A stretch of DNA of 64,000 bases from contig NZ_CP051185.1 of the NCBI RefSeq assembly GCF_012516315.1, positions 951,459 to 1,015,458 of the forward strand. Direction: 5' to 3'. Position 1 is the first letter of the stretch. Every line of letters begins with the position of its first letter. The position numbers were made by a program, and so were the translations under genes. The notes under the pieces were generated by a model. That model saw only the letters and a program-made list of their open reading frames with translations, did no database searches and had not been told where the DNA came from. Positions 54,351 through 64,000 of this stretch are shown piece by piece. This stretch comes from Limnospira fusiformis SAG 85.79. GTDB lineage: Bacteria; Cyanobacteriota; Cyanobacteriia; Cyanobacteriales; Microcoleaceae.

Positions 54351-54408
54351 CAAATTCCCCCAACTATGGCAGGATATTAAATTGTGCCAAACAAATACAC
54401 CCACTCAT

Positions 54409-54492
54409 GCGGAACTGGCGGAATTGGTAGACGCGCTAGATTCAGGTTCTAGTGTTCGCAAGGACTTCCGGGTTCAAGTCCCGGGTTCCGCA
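54409..54492 (+). tRNA. tRNA-Leu (CAG)
   Basis: An 84-base class II tRNA: acceptor GCGGAAC pairs with GTTCCGC, anticodon loop TTCAGGT gives CAG, there is a long variable arm (TGTTCGCAAGGACT), T-loop TTCAAGT and discriminator A. It stands just upstream of a 162-bp tandem array that repeats its 3' end. Confidence 0.96.
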
Positions 54493-55340
54493 TTTGGAAG
54501 GAAATGGGCTGGGGGAAGTTGGGCTGATATATGCCACTGTTAACCGTGTTGGCATTTGCACTCGTTTTACACTCACTGCCAATAATGCGATCGCTTTTGA
54601 GTGCATCAGTGTGATGGTACAATGGGGGCTCAAGTTCCCGGTTCCCCATTGGGAAACAAACCCCGTTGGGCTGGGGGAAGTTGGGTTGATATATGCCACT
54701 GTTAACCGTGTTGGCATTTGCACTTATTTTACACTCACTCCCAATAATGCGATCGCTTTTGAGTGCATCAGTGTGATGGTACAATGGGGGCTCAAGTTCC
54801 CGGTTCCGCATTGGGAAACAAACCCCGTTGGGCTGGGGGAAGTTGGGCTGATATATGCCACTGTTAACCGTGTTGGCATTTGCACTTATTTTACACTCAC
54901 TCCCAATAATGCGATCGCTTTTGAGTGCATCAGTGTGATGGTACAATGGGGGCTTAAGTTCCCGGTTCCGCATTGGGAAACAAACCCCGTTGGGCTGGGG
55001 GAAGTTGGGTTGATATATGCCACTGTTAACCGTGTTGGCATTTGCACTTATTTTACACTCACTCCCAATAATGCGATCGCTTTTGAGTGCATCAGTGTGA
55101 TGGTACAATGGGGGCTTAAGTTCCCGGTTCCGCATTGGGAAACAAACCCCGTTGGGCTGGGGGAAGTTGGGTTGATATATGCCACTGTTAACCGTGTTGG
55201 CATTTGCACTTATTTTACACTCACTCCCAATAATGCGATCGCTTTTGAGTGCATCAGTGTGATGGTACAATGGGGGCTCAAGTTCCCGGTTCCGCATTGG
55301 GAAACAAACCCCGTTGGGCTGGGGGAAGTTGGGTTTCGCT
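54493..55340. repeat. 162-bp tandem array (five copies) with tRNA-Leu 3'-end echoes
   Basis: The marker ATGCCACTG recurs with an exact 162-bp period (G of ATG at 54533, 54695, 54857, 55019, 55181). Each unit ends in a segment such as GGGCTCAAGTTCCCGGTTCC matching the 3' end of tRNA-Leu (about 27 of 31 bases over the longer stretch). As 162 is 54 codons, long open frames appear on both strands and are artefacts. Each unit holds a HIP1 site. The last copy runs into the GTTGGGTTTCGCTGCG hairpin that ends the kinase cluster. Confidence 0.93.
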
Positions 55341-55357
55341 GCGCTTCACCCAACCTA

Positions 55358-57208
55358 CTAAAGCGCACAAGCCACCCGAAAACCGCAGCTGAAGTAGAGG
55401 AGGTCTGAGCCGCCCCTGTCGCGGTTGGCACAACGGCAGACTACTGGATTGAAGAGCCACGAACCGCCACGCAGCACCCTTCTTTCTTGGCTTTCCAAAA
55501 AGTTGACTAAATATTCAATAGGTTTTTGATAACGAATATCGTTGTCATAATCCCACACACCACCATCCGAAGGCGCACCATTGTAGCTGTCGTGCCAGGG
55601 GTCAGCGCACCATTCCGAAACATTTCCGTGGATATCATACAAGCCAAAGGCGTTGGCGTGTTGAAACTGACCGACGGGGGTGGTTTGTCCGCGGTAGGCT
55701 CCCAGGGGTCCTGAGCTATAGGTGTGGTTGCCATCGTAGTTGGCGAGGTCCGTCGTCAGGGTATCACCGACGTGAAAGGGGCTAGTGGTTCCGGCGCGGG
55801 CTGCATATTCCCACTCCGCTTCACTCGGTAATCGGTAGGGTTTGCCAATTCTCTTCGAGAGGCGGGCGCACCACTCCATTACATCATACCATGCAACCGA
55901 TTCAACGGGAAGATTTAATCCTTTAAAAGCTGAGGGGTCTGGGTTCAGGTCCCGTTGGAGTTTGGGGAAACTAGCCACTTGTCGCCATTGTGCTTGGGTA
56001 ACCGGATATTTCCCCATTAGGAAGGGTTTAATCGTGACTTGGTGTTGGGGTCTTTCCTTATTTAGTGAACTTCCAGCTTCACCACTCGGCGCACCCATTT
56101 TAAAGGTTCCCCCCGGAATTTTTACCATCTCCAGAGTCACACTATTTCCCAGGTCTTCGATAATACATTCAGCCTGACCGGGACGACGGTTAATTTCTCG
56201 ACCCATTGAATTGACCGTAACGATATCAAATTCAAACTTCTGGGTTCCCGGTTGGAAAGCTTTATTGGGAGTCTGTTTAACAGTCTCTGGGATGACGGTT
56301 TGAGGACTTGTTGGGTTGGTCGGTTTCCCATAATCTCGCTGTAAATCTTCCCACACTTCCGCTACAGATTGATAGCGTTTTTTAAATACTGTCTCAACCA
56401 AACGCTCTAAGATTTTGCCTAGTTTCTCACCCACCTGATTGCCATTTAAATGCTCACGCCACACCCATTGTGATTCTAAGGGGTCATATAAATATGACGG
56501 ACTCACTTGGGTTAGCAGATATAAACAAGTCACCCCTAAACTATATAAATCACTCCCATATTGAGGTTTTCCCATAGCCTGTTCCGGGGCGCAATATTCC
56601 GCCGAACCGATAACCGTTCCCGCTACGCTAAGAGATGTGCGCCGCACCTGTTTAGATGCTCCAAAATCCACTAGGACTAACTTATTATCACTGGCGCGTC
56701 TAATGATGTTTTCCGGTTTAATATCCCGGTGAATCACTTGATTTTGGTGGACGAAATCCAAAACTGGCAATAAATCCTCTAGCAGGGAACTGATTTGATT
56801 TTCGCTAAAAGCGCCTTGATTATCTAACTCCTGTTGTAGGGTTTCCCCTTTGATAAATTCCTGAATTAAATATTGACGGTTATCAGCCGTAAAATAAGCC
56901 AAAAGTTCCGGGATTTGGGAATGTTTGCCGAGGAGTTCTAAACGTTGGGCTTCTTGGTCGAATAATTCGGCTGCTTTTTGCAGGTTAGCGGTTCCTTGTG
57001 CCTGGGGAAGGAATTGCTTAATCACGCAGGGAGGTTTAGAAGGTTTGAAGTCATCCACTGCCAGAAATGTGCGTCCGAAGCCACCTTGTCCGAGGATGCT
57101 TTGAGCATAGTAGCGTTCTGCCAGTCGGAGTTGACTGCCACATTTTTGGCAAAATTGGAAACCTTCGGGGTTGATGTGGAGGCAGTCTGGGTTCAGACAT
57201 TGGCTCAT
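55358..57208 (-). CDS. Ser/Thr protein kinase with FGE-sulfatase domain, paralog 1 (variable C-terminus)
   Basis: Domains: zinc ribbon (Cys4, Cys9, Cys20, Cys23), then a Hanks-type kinase with glycine loop G40QGGFG45, Lys64, HRD 160-162 and DFG 181-183, all intact, a linker, and a C-terminal FGE-sulfatase/C-type-lectin-like domain (VTLEMVKIPGGTFKMG...FHVGDTLTTDLANY...YDIHGNVSEWCADP). The final stretch RVLRGGSW to FRVA is the place where DGR-diversified proteins of this fold carry the variable region, and it is hypervariable among the four paralogs (variable stretch at 55385-55456). Signal sensing by the FGE part and phosphorylation by the kinase is the likely mode; ligand unknown. Confidence 0.93.
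   Translation of the reverse strand: MSQCLNPDCLHINPEGFQFCQKCGSQLRLAERYYAQSILGQGGFGRTFLAVDDFKPSKPPCVIKQFLPQAQGTANLQKAAELFDQEAQRLELLGKHSQIPELLAYFTADNRQYLIQEFIKGETLQQELDNQGAFSENQISSLLEDLLPVLDFVHQNQVIHRDIKPENIIRRASDNKLVLVDFGASKQVRRTSLSVAGTVIGSAEYCAPEQAMGKPQYGSDLYSLGVTCLYLLTQVSPSYLYDPLESQWVWREHLNGNQVGEKLGKILERLVETVFKKRYQSVAEVWEDLQRDYGKPTNPTSPQTVIPETVKQTPNKAFQPGTQKFEFDIVTVNSMGREINRRPGQAECIIEDLGNSVTLEMVKIPGGTFKMGAPSGEAGSSLNKERPQHQVTIKPFLMGKYPVTQAQWRQVASFPKLQRDLNPDPSAFKGLNLPVESVAWYDVMEWCARLSKRIGKPYRLPSEAEWEYAARAGTTSPFHVGDTLTTDLANYDGNHTYSSGPLGAYRGQTTPVGQFQHANAFGLYDIHGNVSEWCADPWHDSYNGAPSDGGVWDYDNDIRYQKPIEYLVNFLESQERRVLRGGSWLFNPVVCRCANRDRGGSDLLYFSCGFRVACAL
55385..55456 (-). other. Variable region of kinase paralog 1 (DGR-like)
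   Basis: Codons after GGTTCGTGG differ from the other paralogs almost only at positions 1 and 2 of NNC-type codons. Residues read LFN..VV.....N.DRGGS.L.YFSC between constant blocks CRCA and FRV. A CAGCTG site (55386-55391) falls inside. Confidence 0.7.
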
Positions 57209-57337
57209 AATCAGGATGGTTATTGATACCTGATTCTACATTACCATAAATGCCAAAAATTAACCCGCTTTTTCACAGAAACCCGGTGGCTCACGGCTGG
57301 CTGGGAAGTTGGGTTTCGCTGCGCTTCACCCAACCTA

Positions 57338-59113
57338 CTAAAGCGCTACCCGAAAACTGAGGAAGTCGTCGAGGAAGTCTGGGTCGCCCCAGTTGCGGAG
57401 GGCACAACGGCAGCTTTCTGGATTGTAGCTCCACGAACCGCCGCGCAGCACACGTCTTTCTTTGCTTTCCAAAAACTTGACTAAATATTCAATAGGTTTT
57501 TGATAACGACTATCGTTCCCAACATCCCACACACCACCATCCGAAGGCGCACCATTGTAGCTATCATGCCAGGGGTCAGCGCACCATTCCCAAACATTTC
57601 CGTGGATATCATACAAGCCAAAGGCGTTGGCGTGTTGAAACTGACCGACGGGGGTGGTTTGTTCGCGGTAGGCTCCCTTGGGTTCTGAGCTATAGGTGCT
57701 GCTGCCATTGTAGTTGGCGAGGTCTGTCGTCAGGGTATCACCGACATGAAAGGGGCTAGTTGTTCCGGCACGGGCTGCATATTCCCACTCGGCTTCACTG
57801 GGCAATCGGTAGGGTTTGCCAATTCTTTTCGAGAGGCGGGCGCACCACTCGATTACATCATACCATGAAACTTTTTCAACCGGAAGATTTAATCCTTTAA
57901 ATCTTGAGGGGTCTAGGCTCAGGTCCCGTTGAAGTTTGGGGAAACTAGCCACTTGTCGCCATTGTTCTTGGGTAACCGGATATTTCCCCATGAGGAAGGG
58001 TTTAATCGTGACTCGGTGTTGGGGTCTTTCATCATCATCACTTTTAGCTTCACCACTCGGTGAACCCATAATAAAGGTTCCCCCCGGAATTAGCACCATC
58101 TCCAGAGTCACCCCATTTCCCAGGTCTTCGATAATACATTCAGCCTGACCGGGACGACGGTTAATTTCTCGACCCATTGAATTGACCGTAACGATGTCAA
58201 ATTCAAACTTCTGGGTTGGGGGTTTTGGACTATCATCAGATGGCTGTAAATCTGCCCAAACTTCCGCTACAGATTGATAGCGTTTTCTAAAGACTGTCTC
58301 AACCAAACGGTCTAAGATTTCGCCTAGTTTATCACTCACCTGATTGCCATTTAAATGCTCACGCCAAACCCATTGTGATTCTAAGGGGTCATATAAATCT
58401 GACGGACTAACTTGGGTTAGCAGATATAAACAAGTCACCCCTAAACTATATAAATCACTCCCATATTGAGGTTTTCCCATAGCCTGTTCCGGGGCGCAAT
58501 ATTCCGCCGAACCGATAACCGTTCCCGCTACGCTCATAGATGTGCGCCGCACTTGTTTAGATGCTCCAAAATCCACTAGAACTAACTTATTATCACTGGC
58601 GCGTCTAATGATGTTTTCCGGTTTAATATCCCGGTGAATCACTTGATTTTGGTGGACGAAATCCAAAACTGGCAATAAATCCTTGAGCAGCGAAATGATT
58701 TGATTTTCGGTAAAAGCGCCTTGATTATCTAACTCCTGTTGTAGGGTTTCTCCTTCGATAAATTCCTGAATTAAATATTGACGGTTATCAGCCGTAAAAT
58801 AAGCCAAAAGTTCCGGGATTTGGGAATGTTTGCCGAGGAGTTCTAAACGTTGGGCTTCTTGGTCGAATAATTGGGCGGCTTTTTCTAGGGTAGCGGTTCC
58901 TTGCGCCTGGGGAAGGAATTGCTTAATCACGCAGGGAGGTTTAGAAGGTTTGAAGTCATCCACTGCCAGAAATGTGCGTCCGAACCCACCTTGTCCGAGG
59001 ATGCTTTTAGCATAGTAGCGTTCTGCCAGTCGGAGTTTACTGCCACATTTTTGGCAAAACTGGGAACCTTCGGGGTTGCTGTGGAGGCAGTCCGGGTTGA
59101 GACACTGGCTCAT
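57338..59113 (-). CDS. Ser/Thr protein kinase with FGE-sulfatase domain, paralog 2
   Basis: Same layout as paralog 1, nearly identical in the zinc ribbon and kinase parts (HRD and DFG kept), with a shorter linker (DLQPSDDSPKPPTQK). The insert in the FGE domain reads GEAKSDDDERPQHR where paralog 1 has GEAGSSLNKERPQHQ. The variable end at 57356-57430 reads SYN..ES.....L.NWGDP.F.DDFLS. The 156-bp spacer before the start codon is repeated twice more beyond it as gene-loss scars. Confidence 0.93.
   Translation of the reverse strand: MSQCLNPDCLHSNPEGSQFCQKCGSKLRLAERYYAKSILGQGGFGRTFLAVDDFKPSKPPCVIKQFLPQAQGTATLEKAAQLFDQEAQRLELLGKHSQIPELLAYFTADNRQYLIQEFIEGETLQQELDNQGAFTENQIISLLKDLLPVLDFVHQNQVIHRDIKPENIIRRASDNKLVLVDFGASKQVRRTSMSVAGTVIGSAEYCAPEQAMGKPQYGSDLYSLGVTCLYLLTQVSPSDLYDPLESQWVWREHLNGNQVSDKLGEILDRLVETVFRKRYQSVAEVWADLQPSDDSPKPPTQKFEFDIVTVNSMGREINRRPGQAECIIEDLGNGVTLEMVLIPGGTFIMGSPSGEAKSDDDERPQHRVTIKPFLMGKYPVTQEQWRQVASFPKLQRDLSLDPSRFKGLNLPVEKVSWYDVIEWCARLSKRIGKPYRLPSEAEWEYAARAGTTSPFHVGDTLTTDLANYNGSSTYSSEPKGAYREQTTPVGQFQHANAFGLYDIHGNVWEWCADPWHDSYNGAPSDGGVWDVGNDSRYQKPIEYLVKFLESKERRVLRGGSWSYNPESCRCALRNWGDPDFLDDFLSFRVAL
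57356..57430 (-). other. Variable region of kinase paralog 2 (DGR-like)
   Basis: Aligned by codon with the other three variable regions; substitutions fall in AGC, TAC, CTC, AAC, GAC, TTC-type codons with constant third base. Constant GGTTCGTGG and TTTTCGGGT flank it. Confidence 0.7.
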
Positions 59114-59440
59114 AATCAGGAGGGTTATTGATACCTGATTCTACATTACCATAAATGCCCAAAATTAACCCGCTTTTTCACAGACACCTGATTTATCACG
59201 GCTGGGAAAGTTGGGTTGCGCTGCGCTTCACCCAACCTACTAAAGCGCTGGGTTGAGACACTGGCTCATAATCAGGAGGGTTATTGATACCTGATTCTAC
59301 ATTACCATAAATGCCCAAAATTAACCCGCTTTTTCACAGACACCTGATTTATCACGGCTGGGAAAGTTGGGTTGCGCTGCGCTTCACCCAACCTACTAAA
59401 GCGCTGGGTTGAGACACTGGCTCATAATCAGGAGGGTTAT
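59114..59440. repeat. 156-bp tandem scars with nine-codon minigenes
   Basis: Two tandem 156-bp units beyond the start of paralog 2. Each holds the kinase upstream spacer, the GTTGGGTTGCGCTGCGC hairpin and a fused minigene encoding MSQCLNPAL, made of the first kinase codons joined directly to the last two plus stop (59240-59269 and 59396-59425). They look like remnants of kinase genes whose whole body was lost, then duplicated. Confidence 0.85.
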
Positions 59441-59780
59441 TGATACTGATATATGCCACTGTTAACCGTGTTGGCATTTGCACTCATTTTACACTCACTC
59501 CCAATAATGCGATCGCTTTTGAGTGCATCAGTGTGATGGTACAATGGGGGCTTAAGTTCCCGGTTCCGCATTGGGAAACAAACCCCGTTGGGCTGGGGGA
59601 AGTTGGGTTGATATATGCCACTGTTAACCGTGTTGGCATTTGCACTTATTTTACACTCACTCCCAATAATGCGATCGCTTTTGAGTGCATCAGTGTGATG
59701 GTACAATGGGGGCTCAAGTTCCCGGTTCCGCATTGGGAAACAAACCCCGTTGGGCTGGGGGAAGTTGGGTTTCGCTGCGC
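59441..59780. repeat. Two further copies of the 162-bp repeat
   Basis: Same unit as at 54493-55340, with ATGCCACTG at 59453 and 59615 (162 bp apart), including the tRNA-Leu 3'-end echo. It ends in the GTTGGGTTTCGCTGCGC hairpin that follows paralog 3. It was presumably carried along when the kinase cluster was duplicated. Confidence 0.9.
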
Positions 59781-59801
59781 TTCACCCAACCTACTAAAGC
59801 G

Positions 59802-61613
59802 CTAAGAGTCGGGGGGGGCACAGGCTACCCGAAAACCGACGTAGTAGTCGAGGAAGTCCGGGCTGTCCCAGAAGCGGTAGGCACAACGGCAGTTTTCTGG
59901 AAAGAAGTCCCACGAACCGCCGCGCAGCACTCGTCGTTCCTTGCTTCCCAAAAAGTTGACTAAATATTCAATAGGTTTTTGATAACGATTATCGTTCCCA
60001 ACATCCCACACACGACCATCCGAAGGCGCACCATTGTAGCTGTCGTGCCAGGGGTCAGCGCACCATTCCCAAACATTTCCGTGGATATCATACAAGCCAA
60101 AGGCGTTGGCGTGTTGAAACTGACCGACGGGGGTGGTTTGTTCGCGGTAGGCTCCCTTGGGTCCTGAGCTATAGGTGTAGTTGCCATAGTAGTTGGCGAG
60201 GTCTGTCGTCAGGGTATCACCGACGTGAAAGGGGCTAGTGGTTCCGGCGCGGGCTGCATATTCCCACTCCGCTTCACTGGGCAATCGGTAGGGTTTGCCG
60301 ATTCTTTTCGAGAGGCGGGCGCACCACTCGATTACATCATACCATGAAACTTTTTCAACGGGAAGATTTAATCCTTTAAAATGTGAGGGGTCTAGGTTCA
60401 GGTCCCGTTGGAGTTTGGGGAAACTAGCCACTTGTCGCCATTGTGCTTGGGTAACGGGATATTTCCCCATGAGGAAGGGTTTAATCGTGACTTGGTGTTG
60501 GGGTCTTTCCTTATTTAGTGAACTTCCAGCTTCACCCCTCGGCGCACCCATTTTAAAGGTTCCCCCCGGAATTTTTACCATCTCCAGAGTCACCCCATTT
60601 CCCAGGTCTTCGATAATACATTCAGCCTGACCGGGACGACGGTTAATTTCTTGTCCCTTTGAATTGACCGTAACGATATCAAATTCAAACTTCTGGGTTA
60701 CCGGTTTGCCAGTTGTATTGTTAGTCGGTTTCCCATAATATCGCTGTAAATCTGCCCATACTTCGGCTACAGATTGATAGCGTTTTTTAAAGACTGTCTC
60801 AACCAAACGCTCTAAGATTTCGCCTAATTTATCACTCACCTGATTGCCATTTAAATGCTCACGCCACACCCATTGTGATTCTAAGGGGTCATATAAATAT
60901 GACGGACTCACTTGGGTTAGCAGGTATAAACAAGTCACCCCTAAACTATATAAATCACTCCCATATTGAGGTTTTCCCATAGCCTGTTCCGGGGCGCAAT
61001 ATTCCGCCGAACCGATAACCGTTCCGGTGACGCTCATAGATGTGCGCCGCACCTGTTTAGATGCTCCAAAATCCACTAGGACTAACTTTTTATCACTGGC
61101 TCGTCTAATGATGTTTTCCGGTTTAATATCCCGGTGAATTACTTTATGTTTGTGTACAAAATACAAAACTGGCAATAAATCCTTGAGCAGGGAAATGATT
61201 TGATTTTCCGTAAAAGCGCCTTGATTGTCTAACTCCTGTTGTAGGGTTTCCCCTTTGATAAATTCCTGAATTAAATATTGACGGTTATCAGCCGTAAAAT
61301 AAGCCAAAAGTTCCGGGATTTGGGAATGTTTGCCGAGGAGTTCTAAACGTTGGGCTTCTTGGTCGAATAATTCGGCTGCTTTTTCTAGGGTAGCGGTTCC
61401 TTGCGCCTGGGGAAGGAATTGTTTAATCACACAGGGAGGTTTAGAAGGTTTGAAGTCATCCACTGCCAGAAATGTGCGTCCGAAGCCACCTTGTCCGAGG
61501 ATGCTTTTAGCATAGTAGCGTTCTGCCAGTCGGAGTTGACTGCCACATTTTTGGCAAAACTGGGAACCGTCGGGGTTGATGTGGAGGCAGTCTGGGTTGA
61601 GACACTGGCTCAT
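59802..61613 (-). CDS. Ser/Thr protein kinase with FGE-sulfatase domain, paralog 3
   Basis: Same domains and catalytic residues as the other three (HKHKVIHRD, LVDFGASK). Linker short (GKPTNNTTGKPVTQK). The C-terminal end differs: after FRVACAP it continues PPDS from a run of eight C, so the reading end is longer than in paralogs 2 and 4. Variable region at 59835-59909 reads DFF..EN.....Y.FWDSP.F.DYYV. Confidence 0.93.
   Translation of the reverse strand: MSQCLNPDCLHINPDGSQFCQKCGSQLRLAERYYAKSILGQGGFGRTFLAVDDFKPSKPPCVIKQFLPQAQGTATLEKAAELFDQEAQRLELLGKHSQIPELLAYFTADNRQYLIQEFIKGETLQQELDNQGAFTENQIISLLKDLLPVLYFVHKHKVIHRDIKPENIIRRASDKKLVLVDFGASKQVRRTSMSVTGTVIGSAEYCAPEQAMGKPQYGSDLYSLGVTCLYLLTQVSPSYLYDPLESQWVWREHLNGNQVSDKLGEILERLVETVFKKRYQSVAEVWADLQRYYGKPTNNTTGKPVTQKFEFDIVTVNSKGQEINRRPGQAECIIEDLGNGVTLEMVKIPGGTFKMGAPRGEAGSSLNKERPQHQVTIKPFLMGKYPVTQAQWRQVASFPKLQRDLNLDPSHFKGLNLPVEKVSWYDVIEWCARLSKRIGKPYRLPSEAEWEYAARAGTTSPFHVGDTLTTDLANYYGNYTYSSGPKGAYREQTTPVGQFQHANAFGLYDIHGNVWEWCADPWHDSYNGAPSDGRVWDVGNDNRYQKPIEYLVNFLGSKERRVLRGGSWDFFPENCRCAYRFWDSPDFLDYYVGFRVACAPPDS
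59835..59909 (-). other. Variable region of kinase paralog 3 (DGR-like)
   Basis: Codon comparison as for the other paralogs; GAC, TTC, TTT, AAC, TAC, TTC, TGG, GAC, AGC at the variable sites with fixed blocks TGCCGTTGTGCC and TTTTCGGGT. Confidence 0.7.
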
Positions 61614-61739
61614 AATCAGGAGGGTTATTGATACCTGATTCTACATTACCATAAATGCCCAAAATTAACCCGCTTTTTCACAGACACCTGATTTATCACG
61701 GCTGGGAAAGTTGGGTTTCGCTGCGCTTCACCCAACCTA

Positions 61740-63590
61740 CTAAAGCGCTACCCGAAAACCGACGTTGTAGTAGAGGTTGTCCGGGTCGGACCTGTAGCGG
61801 TAGGCACAACGGCAGCTTTCTGGATTGCCGTACCACGAACCGCCGCGCAGCACTCGGTGGTCTTTGCTTCCCAAAAACTTGACTAAATATTCAATAGGTT
61901 TTTGATAACGATTATCGTTCCCAACATCCCACACACGACCATCCGAAGGCGCACCATTGTAGCTGTCGTGCCAGGGGTCAGCGCACCATTCCCAAACGTT
62001 CCCGTGGATATCATACAAGCCAAATGCGTTGGCGTGTTGAAACTGACCGACGGGGGTGGTTTGTTCGCGGTAGGCTCCCTTGGGTCCTGAGCTATAGGTG
62101 TAGTCGCCACGGTAGTTGGCGAGGTCGGTGGTCAGGGTATCACCGACATGAAAGGGGCTAGTGGTTCCGGCGCGAGCTGCATATTCCCACTCGGCTTCAC
62201 TGGGTAATCGGTAGGGTTTGCTGATTACTTTTGAGAGGCGATCGCACCACTCCATTACATCATACCATGAAACCGATTCAACGGGAAGATTTAATCCTTT
62301 AAATCTTGGGGGGTCTAGGCTCAGGTCCCGTTGAAGTTTGGGGAAACTAGCCACTTGTTGCCATTGTGCTTGGGTAACCGGATATTTCCCCATTAGGAAG
62401 GGTTTAATCGTGACTTGGTGTTGGGGTTCTTCTTCGCCATGATAGCGACTCCATCGCTTTTCGGATGCAGGTGAACCCATAATAAAGGTTCCCCCCGGAA
62501 TTAGCACCATCTCCAGGGTTACACCGTTTCCCAGGTCTTCGATAATACATTCAGCCTGACCGGGACGACGGTTAATTTCTCGACCCATTGAATTGACCGT
62601 AACGATATCAAATTCAAACTTCTGGGTTACCGGTTTGCCAGTTGTATTGGGAGTCTGTTTAACAGTCTCTGGGATGACGGTTTGAGGACTTGTTGGGTTG
62701 GGCGATTTCCCATAATATCGCCGTAAATCTTCCCAAACTTCCGCTACAGATTGATAGCGTTTGTTAAACACTGTCTCAACCAAACGGTCTAAGATTTTGC
62801 CTAGTTTCTCACTCAACTGATTGTCATTTAAATGCTCACGCCACACCCATTGTAATTCTAAGGGGTCATATAAATTCGACGGACTCACTTCGGTTAGCAG
62901 GTATAAACAAGTCACCCCTAAACTATATAAATCACTCCCATATTGAGGTTTTCCCATAGCCTGTTCCGGGGCGCAATATTCCGCCGAACCGATAACCGTT
63001 CCGGTGACGCTCATAGATGTGCGCCGCACCTGTTTAGATGCTCCAAAATCCACTAGGACTAACTTGTTATCACTGGCTCGTCTAATGATGTTTTCCGGTT
63101 TAATATCCCGGTGAATCACTTGATTTTGGTGGACGAAATCCAAAACTGGCAATAAATCCTCTAGCAGCGAAATGATTTGATTTTCGCTAAAAGCGCCTTG
63201 ATTATCTAGCTCCTGTTGTAGGGTTTCCCCTTCGATAAATTCCTGAATTAAATATTGACGGTTATCAGCCGTAAAATAAGCCAACAGTTCCGGGATTTGG
63301 GAATGTTTGCCGAGGAGTTCTAAACGTTGGGCTTCTTGGTCGAATAATTGGGCGGCTTTTTCTAGGGTAGCGGTTCCTTGCGCCTGGGGAAGGAATTGCT
63401 TAATCACGCAGGGAGGTTTAGAAGGTTTGAAGTCATCCACTGCCAGAAATGTGCGTCCGAACCCGCCTTGTCCGAGGATGCTTTTAGCATAGTAGCGTTC
63501 TGCCAGTCGGAGTTTACTGCCACATTTTTGGCAAAACTGGGAACCTTCGGGGTTGCTGTGGAGGCAGTCCGGGTTGAGACACTGGCTCAT
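61740..63590 (-). CDS. Ser/Thr protein kinase with FGE-sulfatase domain, paralog 4
   Basis: Same zinc ribbon, kinase (HRD, DFG intact) and FGE domains. The insert after MGSPAS reads EKRWSRYHGEEEPQHQ, different from the others. Its variable end at 61758-61832 reads YGN..ES.....Y.YRSDP.N.YYNV. It starts with ATG at 63590 and ends in the common hairpin. Family size suggests recent tandem duplication followed by C-terminal diversification. Confidence 0.93.
   Translation of the reverse strand: MSQCLNPDCLHSNPEGSQFCQKCGSKLRLAERYYAKSILGQGGFGRTFLAVDDFKPSKPPCVIKQFLPQAQGTATLEKAAQLFDQEAQRLELLGKHSQIPELLAYFTADNRQYLIQEFIEGETLQQELDNQGAFSENQIISLLEDLLPVLDFVHQNQVIHRDIKPENIIRRASDNKLVLVDFGASKQVRRTSMSVTGTVIGSAEYCAPEQAMGKPQYGSDLYSLGVTCLYLLTEVSPSNLYDPLELQWVWREHLNDNQLSEKLGKILDRLVETVFNKRYQSVAEVWEDLRRYYGKSPNPTSPQTVIPETVKQTPNTTGKPVTQKFEFDIVTVNSMGREINRRPGQAECIIEDLGNGVTLEMVLIPGGTFIMGSPASEKRWSRYHGEEEPQHQVTIKPFLMGKYPVTQAQWQQVASFPKLQRDLSLDPPRFKGLNLPVESVSWYDVMEWCDRLSKVISKPYRLPSEAEWEYAARAGTTSPFHVGDTLTTDLANYRGDYTYSSGPKGAYREQTTPVGQFQHANAFGLYDIHGNVWEWCADPWHDSYNGAPSDGRVWDVGNDNRYQKPIEYLVKFLGSKDHRVLRGGSWYGNPESCRCAYRYRSDPDNLYYNVGFRVAL
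61758..61832 (-). other. Variable region of kinase paralog 4 (DGR-like)
   Basis: TAC, GGC, AAT, AGC, TAC, TAC, AGG, TCC, GAC, AAC, TAC, TAC, AAC at the variable codons; it keeps the most AAC/AAT codons of the four, so it is probably closest to the unseen template. Confidence 0.7.
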
Positions 63591-64000
63591 AATCAGGAGG
63601 GTTATTGATACCTGATTCTACATTACCATAAATGCCCAAAATTAACCCGCTTTTTCACAGACACCTGATTTATCACGGCTGGGAAAGTTGGGTTGCGCTG
63701 CGCTTCACCCAACCTACTAAAGCGCTGGGTTGAGACACTGGCTCATAATCAGGAGGGTTATTGATACCTGATTCTACATTACCATAAATGCCCAAAATTA
63801 ACCCGCTTTTTCACAGACACCTGATTTATCACGGCTGGGAAAGTTGGGTTGCGCTGCGCTTCACCCAACCTACTAAAGCGCTGGGTTGAGACACTGGCTC
63901 ATAATCAGGAGGGTTATTGATACCTGATTCTACATTACCATAAATGCCCAAAATTAACCCGCTTTTTCACAGAAACCCGGTGGCTCACGGCTGGCTGGGA
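63591..64000. repeat. 156-bp tandem scars beyond paralog 4
   Basis: Two more scar units with the MSQCLNPAL minigene (ATG at 63746 and 63902, period 156), then the start of another spacer that runs off the window and ends with a version like that between paralogs 1 and 2. The cluster therefore continues past base 64000. Confidence 0.85.

Follow-up and report, generated by a model that had tools for sequence, protein, structure and literature searches.

What could give a set of similar genes different endings while keeping the third base of nearly every altered codon? The question is raised by a 64,000-nucleotide stretch of the Limnospira fusiformis SAG 85.79 chromosome (the window, chromosome positions 951459-1015458). 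Here four tandem genes each encode a kinase joined to an FGE/C-type-lectin-like domain with a hypervariable C terminus. A preliminary description of the window had proposed that a diversity-generating retroelement (DGR) of the same genome rewrites these ends in trans by adenine-directed copying. We find it very probable that the kinase sensors owe their variable ends to a cyanobacterial DGR, which was probably also active after this species and a second one of its genus had split. The DGR would then have been lost, or it would reside on an element that neither assembly contains. We infer both the DGR reverse transcriptase (RT) as author, and its departure from the chromosomes or residence elsewhere, from sequence comparison.

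The window genes belong to two chromosomal arrays

The four genes occupy 55358-63590 of the window. As the preliminary description had it, all four (4/4) carry a kinase domain (PF00069) followed by an FGE-sulfatase domain (PF03781). The variable region is the last strand-loop part of the FGE/C-type-lectin-like domain, about 72 bases at the 3' end of the gene. Genes and variable regions are located in the window as follows.

55358..57208, minus strand: kinase-FGE variable protein gene 1, 616 aa, PF00069 and PF03781
55383..55456, minus strand: variable region of gene 1; the same sequence forms the variable region of the copy at 2708262 of the chromosome
57338..59113, minus strand: kinase-FGE variable protein gene 2, 591 aa, PF00069 and PF03781
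57357..57430, minus strand: variable region of gene 2, from codon comparison of the four gene ends
59802..61613, minus strand: kinase-FGE variable protein gene 3, 603 aa, PF00069 and PF03781; the sole window copy with the 3' motif GACTC after the variable region
59836..59909, minus strand: variable region of gene 3, from codon comparison of the four gene ends
61740..63590, minus strand: kinase-FGE variable protein gene 4, 616 aa, PF00069 and PF03781
61759..61832, minus strand: variable region of gene 4, from codon comparison of the four gene ends

HRDIKPEN and DFG are kinase motifs. Both can be read in the translations of the window genes, and the kinases therefore look intact. In the one copy scanned, an N-terminal four-cysteine prefix scored above the NCBIfam cut-off.

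The window cuts the array. The source genome is a one-contig chromosome of 6,423,694 bases (99.94% complete), and on the whole of it 12 copies have an intact variable region. They form two arrays, given here in chromosome coordinates.

1006816-1024898: first array, 8 copies with an intact variable region
2708262-2716833: second array, about 1.7 Mb away, 4 copies with an intact variable region
1025101: a shortened copy, left out of the variable-region table

An MSQC N terminus is common to 10 of the 12 copies. The nearest same-genus genome compared, Arthrospira sp. PCC 9108 (CP066886.1; 6,763,964 bases), has six copies, five in one array and one elsewhere. We use Arthrospira below as the genus name for both species.

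Third bases stay constant where codons vary

Between GGTTCGTGG and TTTTCGGGT, 17 codons vary among the four window genes, and the third base is constant in 16. This recount agrees exactly with the figures first given for the locus, and the seven codon sets quoted with them are all correct. For the rest of the same four genes, the third base is constant in 56 of 146 variable codons (Fisher one-sided p=8e-6). The contrast extends to all 18 copies of both species. At C-ending codon columns, non-C cells number 249/2304 in gene bodies versus 8/306 in variable regions (p=2e-7). Between species, C-ending third bases differ at 18.0% in the bodies versus 3.9% in the variable regions. Within the source genome, 8/204 variable-region third bases have drifted, four of the eight in one copy.

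Variable sites coincide with template adenines of related DGRs

Relatives with complete DGRs served as a yardstick. The RT of phage BPP-1 (Brt), used as a query at E<=1e-25, recovered 14 DGR RT loci in 12 of 59 genomes. Their layout is variable protein, RT, template. A template/variable pair with mismatches at template adenines was found at 11 of the 14 loci, and these 11 pairs were used for the tests of adenine columns and letter spectrum; L158, L160 and L161 gave no pair. The pair filter (at most 4 non-A mismatches in 90 bases) favours A mismatches, and the figure of 2/676 changed non-A sites is partly due to this selection.

Of the 28 hypervariable columns in the 18 Arthrospira variable regions, 23 align with template adenines of the 11 loci, versus 5 of the 61 other columns (p=5.6e-12). 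The relatives' templates played no part in defining the hypervariable columns, which makes this an independent test. The link between variation and template adenines is thus shown by proxy, with relatives' templates in place of an own template. The letters written agree as well. At 20 template-A sites, 16 distinct Arthrospira variable regions hold 141 A, 17 C, 65 G and 97 T (.44/.05/.20/.30). The 11 genuine pairs hold 150 A, 20 C, 67 G and 77 T (.48/.06/.21/.25), and the two spectra do not differ (p=0.42). Adenine columns and letter spectrum together support the DGR-type, adenine-directed writing of the gene ends that had been proposed. On these comparisons of sequence, DGR authorship of the variable regions is well supported.

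Could the same pattern arise with no DGR, through positive selection on a ligand-binding loop and recombination between paralogs? Selection for diversity would likewise favour changes at first and second bases. However, three observations do not follow from it: hypervariable columns that fall on template adenines found in other genera, a DGR-like letter spectrum in which C is rare, and third bases that stay constant at NNC/NNT sites, where a change would be synonymous. We consider this explanation very improbable. An almost invariant end (SFSP.LCRSASRSWNE) is present in 11 of the 22 sequences of alignment A2, and therefore the fold itself does not force variability.

A 98-base template was rebuilt from the Arthrospira variable regions. 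For nine of the 12 RT-positive genomes (10 loci), it matches a genuine template located 27-57 bases from a DGR RT. Five plasmid records are matched too, at 37-55 bases from a DGR RT in four of them and 2.3 kb away in the fifth. The template was missed in the other three RT-positive genomes (G008, G019 and G057), marking a limited reach over other genera. One of the relatives' loci (L153, in G023) has two AAC-rich template-like copies, one on each side of the DGR RT.

Among 27 matches of the FGE-like domain, the second is a DGR target of known structure, the Treponema denticola protein TvpA (2y3c), at E=5e-19. This match and the layout in relatives lend support to the earlier view that the FGE/C-type-lectin fold serves as a DGR target in cyanobacterial signalling kinases. 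An AlphaFold2 model of the domain (22 sequences) had a mean predicted local distance difference test score of 52.8, with values below 50 over the variable region, and was not used.

Neither chromosome carries a DGR RT or template

The Brt query had no match at E<=1e-25 in the source genome or PCC 9108. We also built a DGR RT profile from 12 cyanobacterial RTs (alignment A1), with L160 and L163 left out as incomplete or interrupted. Its best match scored 72 bits in the source genome and 74 in PCC 9108, versus 687 and 708 in two positive genomes. The 72-bit match, at about 3761833, is an RT-Cas1 fusion by NCBIfam. At 1e-30, 0 of the 2 searched genomes of the genus had a DGR RT. The rebuilt template had 13 matches in the source genome, comprising the 12 variable regions and one fragment, and seven in PCC 9108, comprising the six variable regions and one fragment. 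None of these matches was a template, and none in either genome exceeded 87% identity. As a positive control, these queries recover both RT and template in relatives.

The fragment at 5451919 was considered as a template remnant and ruled out. It is the decayed end of a variable-protein gene (5451919-5451982 in the source genome, 6514125-6514188 in PCC 9108), at the same place in both species and within a region 93% identical between them. No remains of a DGR RT were found around it, and none around the arrays, where tblastn detected nothing but pieces of group II type close to the second array. RT motifs were also sought in 80 loci with a regular expression; none was found, which is weak evidence. 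For the accessory gene, PF05635 (avd type) has one match in the source genome and none in PCC 9108. Among RT-positive relatives, one has no match at all and the others have matches away from the RT; the family is an uninformative mark of avd.

The source chromosome has 57 RVT_1 matches, many in pieces. In the part inspected (two named by NCBIfam), these enzymes look like the group II intron and RT-Cas1 types; the remainder were judged by the DGR RT profile, among the matches listed. With so many RVT_1 matches, a group II intron RT might have taken over the DGR role. However, the best DGR RT profile match in this genome falls far short of true DGR RTs, and whatever the enzyme, the template to be copied is missing. 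The chance of such a takeover is close to nil.

These searches lend no support to the idea of a DGR of the genome's own acting in trans, as no DGR RT and no template are present on the whole chromosome, nor in the second species. The preliminary description had named two outcomes that would speak against it. One, a genome with no DGR RT or template, is what the chromosome shows. The other, third bases changing between strains as often as first and second bases, is not seen, the third bases at C-ending columns of the variable region being unusually constant both within species and between them.

Such loci may not be confined to Arthrospira. Variable-region-like matches with no DGR RT match at the cut-off occur in 8 of 59 genomes, including the source genome and PCC 9108. 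The six others (G011, G012, G016, G024, G054 and G058) have one or two such matches each and are further, smaller candidates for orphan targets.

A DGR could still be active on a plasmid, prophage or strain-specific island absent from both assemblies, diversifying the arrays in trans. Writing apparently took place in each species after the split, and still no RT or template lies on either chromosome. DGRs of the same clade sit on cyanobacterial plasmids, some with a template that the rebuilt Arthrospira template matches. In Thiohalocapsa, according to the available text of PMC10907252, DGRs that are broken at reference loci occur in intact form in the population. Against this, no exact or close Arthrospira template was found off the chromosome. 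Viral contigs had 0 matches for three exact template patterns and phages had no template match. Plasmids matched the template at no more than 80-85%, and as no plasmid of Arthrospira turned up in the collection, the test has limited power. A query with the RT of a group II intron, used as a probe for Arthrospira plasmids in that collection, had no match, which settles nothing. The third-base drift in the source genome fits writing that has slowed or stopped. On balance we think continuing activity unlikely. As a tentative possibility, a mobile or extrachromosomal DGR may visit or persist in Arthrospira populations and rewrite the chromosomal kinase arrays in trans from a separate replicon, the sequenced strains showing only the targets.

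At least part of the writing likely postdates the species split

Of the 15 copy pairs in PCC 9108, 14 show 16-22 differences within the 72 bases of the variable region (p from 1e-18 to 1.6e-9), with gene bodies 0.6-2.8% apart. The fifteenth pair has identical variable regions and bodies 1.0% apart. The 29 A sites in this pairwise test were derived from the variable regions themselves, making the statement that all differences fall at A sites circular there. No variable region is common to both species, and the nearest pair differs at 12 of 72 bases. Across diverged genes the A sites are scrambled and the other bases uniform. This argues for copying from a common template, as gene conversion would treat both kinds of site alike.

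Some exchange between copies is evident. Two copies separated by 1.7 Mb, one at 1006816 (gene 1, window region 55358-55620) and one at 2708262, share a single sequence over codons 586-668, variable region included, despite an overall difference of 5.8%. The identity resembles a gene-conversion tract. Tracts of this kind can move variable regions, and the arrays might then be an old relic, with the DGR lost before the species split and the diversity inherited and reshuffled by gene conversion. A DGR missing in both species fits this account, and loss and sorting of paralogs could also leave no variable region in common. However, a relic should show third-base change as in the gene bodies (18%), not the 3.9% seen, and gene conversion would even out A and non-A sites alike. 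An old relic is therefore improbable in our judgement, and at least part of the writing likely took place after the split.

Several points weigh against a DGR that wrote the arrays, probably also after the split, and was then lost or resides elsewhere. Both chromosomes lack a DGR RT and a template. Taken alone, PCC 9108 gives no significant third-base contrast (0/102 vs 13/924, p=0.25). Over all codons of the source copies, third-position differences are 0.13 per site in variable regions versus 0.16 in bodies, and the contrast shows up at C-ending columns. Cells and copy pairs are not mutually independent in these statistics. Gene conversion of bodies could make copies seem younger than their true age. 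Finally, GACTC is absent and the ends are shorter in 9 of the 12 source copies.

This last point concerns the 3' boundary. In relatives, template/variable identity stops near GGACT, a motif that the variable copy carries (8 of 11) and for which the template has other letters. GACTC follows the variable region in 6/6 PCC 9108 copies and 3/12 source copies. If it is needed for homing, most source copies are no longer writable. Four source copies with the same shortened end (FRVAL) have different variable regions; therefore, either writing can do without the motif or recombination has swapped ends between copies. Folding of the 75 bases that follow the variable region found no common hairpin.

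A model for the kinase arrays

The gene product would consist of an N-terminal zinc-ribbon-like prefix, a Ser/Thr kinase and the FGE/C-type-lectin-like domain. The DGR RT would copy an AAC-rich template RNA, placing random letters at adenines. The resulting cDNA would replace the end (about 72 bases, repeatedly) of any array member matching the template. Replacement of a target end by adenine-randomised cDNA is the established DGR mechanism, as set out in the available texts of PMC7517822 and PMC8144416. Tandem duplication and gene conversion would have multiplied and reshuffled the genes, and the DGR, acting in trans, would have given every copy its own binding surface. Each copy is then likely a kinase switched by a different ligand, and the arrays a repertoire of different ligand pockets.

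Relation to known systems

A 2020 survey of cyanobacterial DGRs (PMC7517822) describes, in its available text, kinase-CLec (C-type-lectin-like) variable proteins, remote targets and plasmid-borne DGRs. Its targets resemble ours in having a C-terminal CLec domain with the variable region near the 3' end, often an N-terminal kinase, and paralogs spread in the genome that are written in trans as remote targets. Unlike here, all 52 genomes of the survey were chosen for a complete DGR (RT, template and target), whereas our 12 variable regions have no RT or template on the chromosome. The survey's main text names no Arthrospira, Spirulina or Limnospira. In Thiohalocapsa PB-PSB1 (available text of PMC10907252) some targets also have no RT or template of their own, and some are unmatched elsewhere in the reference genome. 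That genome contains other DGRs, and intact versions exist in the population, whereas in our case two species' chromosomes have no DGR. The target gene of the phage BPP-1 DGR (AY029185; available text of PMC3240598) likewise carries, at its 3' end, a variable region with adenine-directed changes, but the RT and template adjoin this target, which is not a cellular signalling kinase. The genes described here combine an N-terminal kinase with a C-terminal CLec domain and variable end, in several paralogs.

Similarity to TvpA (2y3c) is at the level of sequence and indicates the FGE/C-type-lectin fold, but the matched TvpA chain has no kinase domain. In the literature searched, which did not cover subscription papers, we found no large target array without RT and template in two species of one genus, and nothing linking Arthrospira to a DGR. 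Kinase-FGE targets of DGRs are known; arrays this large without a DGR are new. TvpA's DGR is chromosomal.

The arrays present the product of targeted hypermutation parted from its machine. Across two species of a genus that is widely cultivated there are 18 written targets, yet the machine is missing from both chromosomes. They allow one to ask what befalls a hypervariable receptor repertoire once the mutator leaves, and whether DGRs on mobile replicons act on chromosomal arrays. Surveys that start from the RT miss such repertoires, as in the eight genomes above.

Flanking genes and repeats

Corresponding arrays have the same flanking genes in both species, as judged from lists of open reading frames. 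The first array is flanked by a gene that we take to be photolyase-like and by a 402-aa open reading frame. The second is flanked by an 'MSTSTNST' open reading frame and one of 308 aa.

Two families of direct repeats lie between the kinase genes and may aid unequal recombination in the array.

54525..55310, no strand assigned: 162-base direct repeats downstream of gene 1, with more family copies at 59447-59908, between genes 2 and 3
59094..59517, no strand assigned: direct repeats of 156 bases, upstream of gene 2, with further family members at 63571-63994, upstream of gene 4

Together the 162- and 156-base families span window positions 54363-55472, 59094-59908 and 63571-64000. Some repeat units have long open frames on both strands, which look like repeat artefacts. 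Within the first source array, at chromosome positions 1019418-1020515, a 365-aa open frame lies between two copies and is kinase-like by its first residues.

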